A program made the translations under genes and the position numbers. A DNA stretch of 64,000 nt, from NCBI RefSeq assembly GCF_000020785.1, contig NC_011126.1:682001-746000 (forward strand). The letters run 5' to 3'. Positions 24,529 to 28,897 of this stretch are shown in pieces; the stretch's first letter is position 1; each line of letters starts with the position of its first letter. Origin of the DNA: Hydrogenobaculum sp. Y04AAS1. Its GTDB lineage: Bacteria; Aquificota; Aquificia; Aquificales; Aquificaceae. The notes beneath the pieces are model-generated. The model ran no database searches and had not been told where the DNA came from. It was given only the letters and a program-made list of their open reading frames with translations.

Positions 24529-27342
24529 TTAAATATTTTGAGAACATCTTGGACATACGCCATTTATCATAGTTTCTACATAAAGCCAACACCTTGGGCA
24601 TTTTTCACCTTTGGCTTTTTCTACCTTAATACGGAGTTTTGTATACTCACCTTCCTCGCCATCATTTTCTGCTATTTCCACTTGGCTTACGGTAAAAAAC
24701 GAATGAAGATAGTCTTTGTATTTTTCTAAAAGCTTATAAAACTCTTCATTTGGCTTTATAACAACCCTTGCTTCGTAAGGATGTTTTATAATATCATTTT
24801 TACGCTCTATCTCTATAGCTTTTAATACATCTTTTCTAAGAAGTAAAAGTTTTTGGTAGTCTTTTAAAAGCTCTTCATCGGTAAAATCTGAAGCTTTGTA
24901 TTCATTCATAAATATACTTTCTGGGAGATGGTTTTCTATGCTTTTCATATAAGAATAAGTCTCCTCAGCGGTGAAACTAAGCACAGGAGAAAGAAGAATT
25001 GTAAGATTTTTAAGTAAGAAATAAAGCACCGTTTGAGCTGACAACCTTTCAAAAGAACCACTTTTATACATATAAAGTCTATCTTTTAGTACATCAAAAT
25101 ACAAAGCCGACAAATCTATGCTGACAAACTCCATCAACCTATGGTAAAACCTATGATATTGATAATTTTTATAAAAGCTAAAAAGCTCTTCAAAAACCTT
25201 TGAAGCGTAAGCATACATGTATCTATCAAAGTGATGTAGTTTATCTGGTGCTATAGAAAACTCATACTTAAAGTCGTATAAATTTCCAAGGCAATACCTC
25301 AACGTGTTTCTTATTTTCTTATAGTCTTCAGCCAGGCGTTTTAATATAGATTTTCCAAGTTTTATATCCTCAGTATAGTCCTCTGATATAACCCAAAGTC
25401 TTAATATATCTGCCCCATATTCTTTTATAATCTCAAGAGGGGATATGACGTTTCCTTGGGATTTTGACATCTTATGGCCTTTTTCGTCTACGGTAAACCC
25501 ATGGGTAACCACGGATTTAAAGGGGGCTTCTCCGTAAGAAGCAATGGATTCCAACAAAGAAGCTTGAAACCAACCTCTGTGCTGATCTGAACCCTCTAAG
25601 TAAACATCTGCTTTTTCTATACCTCTTGGTCTTAATACCGAAGCATGAGAAGAACCAGAGTCAAACCATACATCTAAAATATCCGTTTCTTTTACAAAGT
25701 CTTTGGAACCACATTTTTTACATACTGTATCTGGTGGCAAAAGCTCTTTTTCGTCTTTTTTAAACCATTCGTCGGCTCCGTAAGGTGAGCTTTCAAATAT
25801 CTTTGCCACATGCTCAAATATATGAGATTCTAAAAGAGGTTCGCCACAGCGCTTACAATAAAATATCGTTATAGGTACTCCCCAAAATCTTTGTCTTGAT
25901 ATACACCAATCAGGTCTATTTTGAAGCATAGAAAGCATACGGTTTTGGCCAGTCTTTGGTACCCATTTTACGTTGTAGGTTTCTTCTATAGCTTTTTCTC
26001 TTATACTTTTATTTTGAAGTTTTTTCACATCAGATGTATCTATTTTTTCATCTTCACAAGAAGCGAAATGCGATGTTATCGCTCTATCAACACCTATAAA
26101 CCACTGAGGAGTAGCTCTATATATTACCGGATTTTTACAGCGCCAGCAATGGGGATAAGAGTGCAAAATCTCCTCTTCCTTTAAAAGAAAGCCTGTTTGT
26201 TTTAAGTGCTCTATAATAACAGTATTCGCTTCAAATACATTTAAACCTCTTATAAACTCAGGAGCTTCTTCTGTAAATCTACCAGATTCATCCACCGGTG
26301 AAAACGGCTCTAAGCCGTATCTTAATCCTACTATATAGTCTTCCATACCATGCCCAGGTGCCATGTGGACAAAGCCTGTACCAGTACCAGCTTCCACAAA
26401 TTCAGAAGGATATATCTTGCCTGTTCTTTCTATAAAAGGATGCTGATATTCTAATCCTGTAAGCTCTTTACCTTTTAAAGAAGCTATAAACTCTTTATTT
26501 TTTACATATTGACTTTGCTTTTCCAACAAAAGAAGATAGTTATCTTCCTCAACAACCACGTACTCTATATCTTCTGAAGACATCACACCTAAGTTTGCAG
26601 GAAGTGTCCAAGGAGTAGTGGTCCAAATTACTATTGAAATAGGTTTATCTGGTAAATCTAGCTTTTGTCTTAAAACATTTTCCGATTGTTTTAAAAGCTC
26701 AAATCTCACGTATATAGATATATCTTTTTTTTCTTTGTATTCTACTTCAGCTTCTGCTTCAGCGGTTTTGTCGTATATACACCAATAAACCGGTTTGTTT
26801 CCTTTGTAAAGCACACCGTTTTGAAGACATCTTCCTATTTCCCTTACCTCTTGAGCTTCGTATTTAGGGTCCATGGTTAGGTATGGATTTTCCCAATCAC
26901 CTAATACACCTAATCTAAGAAATTCCTCTTTTTGAATACTTACAAACTTAGAAGCGTACTCTCTACAGAGTCTTCTAAACTCATCCTTTGGCATGCTTTC
27001 TTTATTTATTTTTTTTGCTTTTAGTTCTTTCTCCACTTGCTGTTCTATTGGAAGGCCATGACAATCCCATCCTGGCTTATAATCTACATCAAAACCCTCT
27101 ATCAAAGCTACCTTACATATTATGTCTTTCAAAATTTTGTTTAAAGCGTGTCCTATATGGATGTTGCCGTTGGCATAAGGTGGTCCATCATGCAATACAA
27201 AAAGTTGTTTTCCCTTTCTTTGTGCTCTTAATTTTTCATACAACCCTTCCCATTTTTTAAGAATCTCCAGCTCTTTTTCCGATAAATTTGCTTTCATTGG
27301 AAAGTCTGTCTTTGGCAAGTTGATAGTGTCTTTGTAATCCAT
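24529..27342 (-). CDS. ileS: Isoleucyl-tRNA synthetase
   Basis: A 937-aa class I synthetase charging tRNA-Ile. The HIGH motif appears as GNIHIGHAL near residue 60, the editing domain lies in the first half ([11 protein letters not shown]), the KMSKS motif is KMSKSQGN near 600, and the C-terminus carries a four-Cys zinc site (CPRCW...CPRC). The length fits the bacterial type. There is no T-box-like leader upstream. A TAAAAT box eight bases before the ATG suggests a very short leader. Confidence 0.96.
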
Positions 27343-27380: not shown

Positions 27381-27601
27381 AGAAACTAGAGAGACGAAGG
27401 CTCATTTCTGAGCTAAGGAAAGCCAAAGAGCGGAAAACGGCTGATAGCACACTTAGAAACTAGAGAGAGGCAAAGACTCGTTTCAAAACTACGGCAAGCC
27501 GAAAAGTGGAGAACGACTAAAGCACACTTAGAAATAGAGAGATGAAGGCTCATTTCAAAGCTAAGACTATCCAAAGAATGGAGAACGGCTAAAGCACACT
27601 T
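27381..27601. repeat. Three degenerate tandem repeats of 72-75 bp
   Basis: Units at 27381-27454, 27455-27529 and 27530-27601, each starting AGAAA(C)TAGAGAGA and ending GC(A)ACACTT. The best-kept part is the GGAGAACGGCTAAAGCACACTT end. The first unit has 34 G/C out of 74, richer than the surrounding DNA. Unit 1 contains a GCTCA-TTTC-TGAGC hairpin that is not kept in units 2 and 3. Unit lengths are not multiples of three and all frames contain stops, so it is not a coding repeat. The rest of the 27343-27679 gap holds only AT-rich promoter-like sequence. The function is unknown. Confidence 0.85.
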
Positions 27602-27663
27602 TACAAACTTAAAGATCTTATTTTAAGATTTTAACAAGTAAAACTTTATTTATGATTTTAGTT

Positions 27664-27679: not shown

Positions 27680-28897
27680 ATGAAAGGAATTTTTGTAAGA
27701 ACACCCGGTCTTAGCTACAACGCTCATTATGTGGAGAGGATGGCTCAAAAACTCAACCAATTTGGCATAGAGCTTATATTTTATGATATTGATTATAACA
27801 ATATAGATGCTTATGTAAACTTTTTGCAAGAGCAAAGGCCATTTTTTGTAATGGATGTAAATGGTTCTGCTTTGGTTTACGGTGAATCCAACGGCGATAG
27901 AGTTTCTTTGTGTGATGCTTTTGGCTTTTTGCATATAAGTGTTTTCACTGAAGATCCGATGCTATATTATCCTGCCCTTTTGAACGGAAGAGAGTCTAGA
28001 AACTTTATACAAATGATAACAGATATGAAACATGCTGATTTCTTAAGAAGTATAGGCTATCAAAATATATACTTCTTAGCTCCTTTCGTATCTGAAGAAC
28101 TACTACAAAGACCGATACCTCAAGAGAAGGAAATAAAAGTTCTTTTCCCAGGGCCTATCGTGGATCCAAATATCATAGTACAAGAAAGTGCAAAAATCTT
28201 CCCAGAAGAGGTAATGCCAGTATTCGTAGAGGTTGGTGAATTCATGCGAAGAAATCCAGAAGTAGATGTTATATTTGCCGTAGAATACATGCTTCCATTT
28301 TTTAACTACGAAATACAAGAAAAATTTTTAAAATGGAGAAACGAATCACCAGAAGCTTATATAAACTTTTTAGTAAACGTCGGACTCTACAATACAGCAA
28401 GAAAAAGACTCTTTGTAATAAACTTTTTGGAAGGCATAGAGATAAAGATTTTAGGAGATTCTCAGGTATCGTTAAAAGAAGGTCAAGAGGTGATAAGCGC
28501 CGAAACACAAGAGGACGTTTTAAATATATATGCAAACTCCATAATAACATTTCTTAGCTTTCCTTCGATAGTACCCTCCGGAATAGGCTTTACACCCATT
28601 GAAGTCATATCTCAAGGTTCTTGTGCTTTTATAGATTATAGGGCATCCCTACCGGGATTTTTTATACCAGATCATGAGATAGTGGCTTATACCCCTCTTG
28701 ATAGGCTTGAAATAGAAGAAAAACTTTTATTTTTCTTAGAAAACGAAGACCAAGCCATGGAGATTGCAAAAAACGGTCGCTCTAAAGTAGAGTCAAGCTT
28801 TACAGAAACCCAAAGAGCTCAGTTTGTAGCAGATATAATAAAGCAAATTTACGAACAATCAATTAGCAACACAATGGATAACCAACAAGAGACTTAA
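27680..28897 (+). CDS. CgeB-like glycosyltransferase family protein
   Basis: A 405-aa soluble protein. The last 110 residues resemble the C-terminal domain of CgeB-type glycosyltransferases: GIGFTPIEVISQG (nucleotide-sugar site Glu), then EIVAYTPLDRLEIEEKL and AKNGRSKVESSFTETQRAQF. The N-terminal half is a Rossmann-like region with no motif I can name. In other bacteria such proteins lie near surface-polysaccharide or flagellin-glycosylation genes; here lpxK follows 25 bases downstream but has its own promoter-like box. The donor and acceptor are unknown. Confidence 0.65.
   Translation: MKGIFVRTPGLSYNAHYVERMAQKLNQFGIELIFYDIDYNNIDAYVNFLQEQRPFFVMDVNGSALVYGESNGDRVSLCDAFGFLHISVFTEDPMLYYPALLNGRESRNFIQMITDMKHADFLRSIGYQNIYFLAPFVSEELLQRPIPQEKEIKVLFPGPIVDPNIIVQESAKIFPEEVMPVFVEVGEFMRRNPEVDVIFAVEYMLPFFNYEIQEKFLKWRNESPEAYINFLVNVGLYNTARKRLFVINFLEGIEIKILGDSQVSLKEGQEVISAETQEDVLNIYANSIITFLSFPSIVPSGIGFTPIEVISQGSCAFIDYRASLPGFFIPDHEIVAYTPLDRLEIEEKLLFFLENEDQAMEIAKNGRSKVESSFTETQRAQFVADIIKQIYEQSISNTMDNQQET

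Follow-up and report, generated by a model that had tools for sequence, protein, structure and literature searches.

Three degenerate tandem repeats occupy the gap between ileS and a glycosyltransferase-like gene in the 64,000-nt stretch of the Hydrogenobaculum sp. Y04AAS1 genome analysed here (the window; contig NC_011126.1, positions 682,001 to 746,000), and the question is what kind of sequence they represent. The initial annotation had left three options, a protein-binding array, a small RNA family or the remnant of a dispersed element. The locus consists of the following features, with positions counted from the first letter of the window:

24529-27342, minus strand: ileS (NCBIfam TIGR00392, 907.8 bits), the only copy found in its genome; it adjoins the array and itself hosts one insertion.
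27381-27387, plus strand: AGAAACT, left flank and spacer repeat seen in the sequence and the repeat search, a candidate target duplication.
27388-27453, plus strand: array unit 1, 66 nt, from the repeat search; a decayed copy of a 78-bp element, aligned to intact copies.
27464-27528, plus strand: array unit 2, 65 nt, from the repeat search.
27536-27600, plus strand: array unit 3, 65 nt, from the repeat search.
27680-28897, plus strand: glycosyltransferase-like gene of 405 aa (Glyco_trans_1_2, PF13524, E = 3.4e-13), to the right of the array.

The repeats are real and had been described accurately. Tandem Repeats Finder reports them at 27381-27609 with a period of 72, 3.1 copies and a score of 275, which exceeds all others in the window by far. 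The repeat search and the family model place three cores of 65-66 nt each, 72-76 bp apart, on the plus strand between 27388 and 27600. They lie, as had been stated, between divergent gene starts, within a 337-bp gap that separates ileS (27342, minus strand) from the Glyco_trans_1_2 gene (27680, plus strand). The reported G/C-richness is equally evident from a G+C content of 0.43 in the array compared to 0.18 and 0.15 in the remaining gap and 0.34 in the window. The spacers between the units read (T)AGAAACT or TAGAAAT and are similar to the flanks of the array; AGAAACT recurs at 27455-27461 and is altered at 27529-27534 and, as ACAAACT, beyond the right end of the array.

A BLAST search of the array against its own genome returned only the array itself, and no match was obtained to phages and plasmids. 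These results are compatible with local repeats that have no relatives, arose by replication slippage and are now decaying. Nevertheless, we consider this explanation to have practically no chance of being correct, since a model search uncovered a large family to which the units align. Faint matches of the array in two genomes led to intact relatives, and a covariance model (R1) was built from 31 aligned rows, 28 of them intact units and 3 the units of the window. In a set of 41 genomes, R1 gave 81 matches in the genome of the window (G000; Hydrogenobaculum, 1,559,514 bp) and 55 in a sister species (G003), and at most one marginal match in each of the remaining genomes including the congeners G001, G002 and G004. 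Among 136 Aquificota genomes from 30 genera, surveyed with stricter filters, only G000 and G003 appeared among the candidates listed per genome. The proposed search of the genome and its relatives thus produced more than 130 copies in two genomes instead of the lack of other copies that had also been considered, and the remnant of a dispersed element was the right option. A description of the 78-bp family was not found in the open-access literature searched.

The three units match R1 with E-values of 3.7e-12, 2.6e-10 and 2.1e-12, which are partly given by construction because the units contribute three of the 31 model rows. They align to the intact copies over most of their length, with about 12 nt missing from the middle; judged by their sequence, they are worn copies of one subfamily. 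Tandem arrays are common in the family, and growth from one to three units at the window site may have occurred by slippage or unequal recombination. Two further groups of copies were recorded. The copies at loci L093, L116, L118 and L119 share the left flank AAGAATC-TAAAC/GCAGC/TCAGC, as if carried inside a larger repeat such as an IS, and those at L098, L106, L115, L123 and L130 form a divergent subfamily (AGAGTGGTTTACCAC...) with a different middle (…TCTTCTTAAAAGACACTTATC…) and the common left flank TATGAAC. A pattern scan of viral contigs hit 23 contigs with one exact 14-mer each, which was treated as chance.

The 78-bp consensus, AGAGCGATATCATCGCATTTCGAATCTAAGGAACAGGCAAAGCCACTCAATAGCTCAGAGAAATGCTTATAGCACACT, corresponds to 26 codons and has the ends TAGAGCG and GCACACTA. 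The GGAGAACGGCTAAAGCACAC end, singled out earlier as the best-kept part of the array, is well preserved throughout the family, its GCACACT terminus being among the most conserved parts. On opposite strands the two ends are alike (TAGAGCG..GCATTTC and TAGTGTGC..GCATTTC) and thus form an imperfect inverted repeat. The element comprises hairpin 1 (GCGAT-NNN-ATCGC), stem 2 (ATTTC/GAAAT) and a hairpin 3, for which 90% of the cells are paired across 126 distinct copies in pair counts made on a model-fitted alignment that leans towards the model. The covariation check suggested for aligned copies yielded 123 doubly changed cells compared to 40 in shuffles. RNAalifold alone recovers only hairpin 1, and stem 2 and hairpin 3 rest on the pair counts. 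For the copy in tmRNA a single long hairpin is predicted (-29.5 kcal/mol, z -3.9), whereas folding is weaker in other copies. As a rule, an intact 78-mer has three open frames out of six, S0 and S2 in sense and A2 in antisense.

In the units of the window hairpin 1 is largely kept, with a C-G pair replaced by A-U, and this feature together with the location between divergent gene starts would suit a regulatory element of ileS or the glycosyltransferase gene, acting as protein-binding sites or as a structured leader or small RNA. Yet stem 2 is partly lost, the window copies fold no better than shuffled sequence, and the Rfam covariance models gave no match to the array up to E = 5. Moreover, the number of units at the orthologous position varies from three in G000 to one in G003 and none in G001 and G004, both of which keep the two flanking genes; the empty site in G001 reads CAGAAACTTAAAG. 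As zero to three copies stand beside unchanged neighbours, the window array gives no sign of function. A regulatory role is therefore very improbable, and neither the protein-binding nor the small-RNA option of the initial annotation finds support. The array between ileS and the glycosyltransferase gene is itself most likely neutral and is best read as an old, decayed, tandemly amplified intergenic subfamily. In the single copy of G003 the 5' part is similar to unit 2 and the 3' part to unit 1, as would result from recombination inside an array.

Beyond the earlier description, the family inserts in frame into protein genes, including the neighbouring ileS, and into tmRNA. In-frame positions within long open reading frames (at least 150 aa, considered without annotation) are taken by about 27 copies, and according to profile matches the hosts are conserved proteins. 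They include IleS (one copy), the ribonucleotide reductase NrdA (four copies per genome in G000 and G003, at partly different sites), TrmFO, topoisomerase III (TopB), a DinG-like helicase (two copies), two EAL proteins, a CDP-alcohol phosphatidyltransferase, an rve-type transposase (two copies) and TnpB. Relative to the host frame, the gene-internal copies stand in sense phase 0 (RAMQSHF...QHT) or 2 (ERYQRIS...) or in antisense, and a single one stands in sense phase 1; nearly all fall in the open frames S0, S2 and A2. Lengths divisible by three were found for 23 of 24 full-length coding copies compared to 39 of 89 non-coding ones (p 1.6e-6), a bias partly expected because a frame-shifting copy would break the reading frame by which coding is defined. 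The sole exception, a 79-bp copy, corresponds to a net gain of 81. The insertion in ileS is located as follows:

26011-26085, minus strand: family copy in frame within ileS, from ortholog alignment and a match to R1 (E = 6.2e-7), its 3' half decayed.

It adds a net 17 codons relative to three congeners, was also compared precisely with G003, and falls between the residues aligned to positions 415 and 416 of the solved IleRS sequence 8c9e. As a separate observation, a TnpB-like gene of G000 (OrfB_IS605; L104:2188-3858, minus strand) carries an antisense family copy, yet a Y1 transposase was not found in this genome.

The tmRNA of G000 measures 426 nt compared to 348-349 nt in four congeners, and the difference is an exact 78-nt insertion of one family copy. 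A hairpin-like insertion of 78 nt in pk4 of the Hydrogenobaculum tmRNA has been noted and called not reported before (Lechner et al. 2014, PMC4227106); we identify this insertion as a member of the 78-bp family. The text consulted draws no connection to a dispersed repeat family. Rfam matches within the copy-bearing loci were confined to tmRNA, tRNAs and a CRISPR repeat. The latter belongs to a CRISPR-DR43 array of G003 (L118:5287-5644, minus strand; six repeats listed) about 0.9 kb from a family copy.

How the copies reached these positions was approached by comparing the stretches around them with their orthologues. The flanks of G000 copies map onto G003 with a gap of exactly 0 in tmRNA, TrmFO, the DinG-like helicase, one ribonucleotide reductase site and two sites within one glycosyltransferase-like gene. 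Conversely, G003 has insertions missing from G000, such as two tandem units in its ribonucleotide reductase. The outer junctions are preferentially T on the left (52 of 78) and A on the right (49 of 73), with p ~5e-9 each against base composition for copies that are not all independent. Duplication of TA is unambiguous at two sites in NrdA, in the DinG-like gene and in rlmB, for which the empty site in G001 reads GATGT-TA-TGCAAA. Based on these data, we consider it probable that the array is an outpost of a mobile element, non-autonomous and about 78 bp long, which was active until recently and moved in the manner of a MITE. In this scenario, a 76-bp core (GAGCG...GCACAC) would enter TA sites and duplicate the TA, such that core and duplication add a net 78 bp and hence keep the frame of a host gene. 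The insert would read through in three of six placements, purifying selection would then retain only frame-preserving copies in genes, and intergenic copies would be free to drift in length and to amplify in tandem. Neither G000 nor G003 encodes a transposase of the Y1 (PF01797), IS630 (DDE_3) or DDE_Tnp_1 type; other transposases are present, and we therefore infer that the element is probably mobilised in trans by an enzyme. An IS630-type or DDE_Tnp_1 source was rejected for want of such genes. Counted against the MITE-like scenario are the missing transposases of the three families searched, junctions without a clean TA (tmRNA with T on the right, TrmFO, and the window array with its AGAAACT spacers), the imperfect terminal inverted repeats and the definition-linked part of the frame bias.

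The same observations bear on a process that requires no enzyme of its own, namely template switching or gene conversion that is guided by homology and starts from tandem arrays, by which a strand paired at a short boundary match copies one whole unit and returns. In its favour are the frequency of tandem arrays, the mosaic appearance of the G003 copy at the window locus and the lack of a candidate among the Y1, IS630-type and DDE_Tnp_1 transposases. A further point is that, directly behind the insertion in TrmFO, 11 nt (AGACCAATAAC) agree with the start of the element itself (AGAGCGATAAC) at 9 of 11 positions. However, at most clean sites the identity to the element boundary is limited to about 2-6 bases, a simple duplication of TA is seen at several of them, and the insertions occur in both orientations and in unrelated genes, which requires no homology. 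We thus regard template switching as rather unlikely and favour MITE-like movement of the element.

Some copies may have become part of gene starts. At rlmB (L190, L191; G003 269923-270161) the element lies between a Shine-Dalgarno-like sequence and the ATG. In G003 the native ATG has changed to ACG, and the reading frame starts from an element-internal ATG behind AGGAG; the element thus appears to supply the start codon of this gene, the use of element-internal starts being deduced from sequence. A glycosyltransferase-like ORF of both genomes (from L122:2640 and L096:2717 on) starts with MLKHT... inside the final unit of an array, again behind AGGAG. The G000 version of the latter appears truncated (307 compared to 368 aa). 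It was also considered that tandem units might encode a short conserved peptide (ATGCTAAAGCACACT... behind AGGAG). As a general function this was dismissed, since the arrays differ in unit length and frame; such a peptide is relevant only where the downstream gene uses its ATG.

A second, shorter repeat was observed alongside the family. It measures 18 bp (ACAAGTMTRCCACGG plus 3 nt, equivalent to 6 codons), is present in about 109 copies in G000 and 86 in G003, with about 30 in G001 and G002, is often tandem at 18-bp spacing and is nested in those copies of the 78-bp element that measure 96 bp. It occurs in frame in proteins, as NRGILVNRGILVNRGILV in an HDOD-domain protein and as an extra QVYHDS in the NrdA of G000; loci that carry it include L126:1882-3864 (minus strand) of G003, NrdA in L101 and an array in L064. 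None lies within the window. As a tentative and rather speculative extension, the 78-bp element might represent a class of protein-invading repeats that dispenses with a transposase. Unit-length copies would be templated from arrays, by strand switching or via an RNA or single-stranded DNA hairpin intermediate, into T|A sites; the 78-bp length and the three open frames would have been selected for harmless passage through genes, and the 18-bp repeat would spread likewise.

Most known cases of 'selfish' palindromes that sit in frame within protein genes come from Rickettsia and Wolbachia, which are obligate intracellular bacteria. The present family was active recently, its host is apparently a free-living bacterium of hot springs, and sister species have empty sites. 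The way these elements move thus becomes testable, as does the tolerance of enzymes such as IleRS and ribonucleotide reductase for inserts of 17-26 residues. In addition, the family accounts for the tmRNA extension of 78 nt reported in 2014, and the element is apparently seen donating a start codon to a gene.

Among known systems, the Rickettsia palindromic elements (RPE) are short palindromic repeats found in frame in conserved protein genes and also in rickettsial tmRNA (PMC2229807; PMC10969869). Like these and their Wolbachia counterparts (WPE), the present element is short, palindromic, present in many copies (81 and 55), forms covarying hairpins and is inserted in frame relative to uninserted orthologues, in several frames (IleS, NrdA, TrmFO, DinG-like helicase, glycosyltransferase); a copy also resides in tmRNA (+78 nt here). 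Unlike RPE of about 100-150 bp, it measures 78 bp, frequently forms tandem arrays, has T|A junctions and resides in an apparently free-living thermophilic member of the Aquificota. Bacterial MITEs (ERIC, Correia and RUP types) are non-autonomous, shorter than 200 bp, have TA ends and contain open frames that fuse to genes (PMC2229807). The element resembles them in these properties, with a TA duplication clear at some sites and deviating junctions at others such as tmRNA and TrmFO. It differs in that hairpins interrupt its terminal inverted repeats, which are imperfect, and in that gene-internal copies are unusually many. The REP/RAYT system likewise consists of short, dispersed, hairpin-bearing and sometimes clustered repeats, from which the element differs by its insertion inside genes; this assignment was rejected as the Y1/RAYT transposase (PF01797) is absent from G000 and G003. 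The nested 18-bp repeat, likewise located in frame in proteins, is reminiscent of the small dispersed repeats (SDR) of cyanobacteria. We refrain from assigning the family to a named RPE, WPE or MITE family, because its length of 78 bp differs and the search of both genomes for DDE_3 and DDE_Tnp_1 genes revealed no parental IS. By analogy, and with no homology to RPE implied, the element works like an RPE and looks like a TA-directed MITE.
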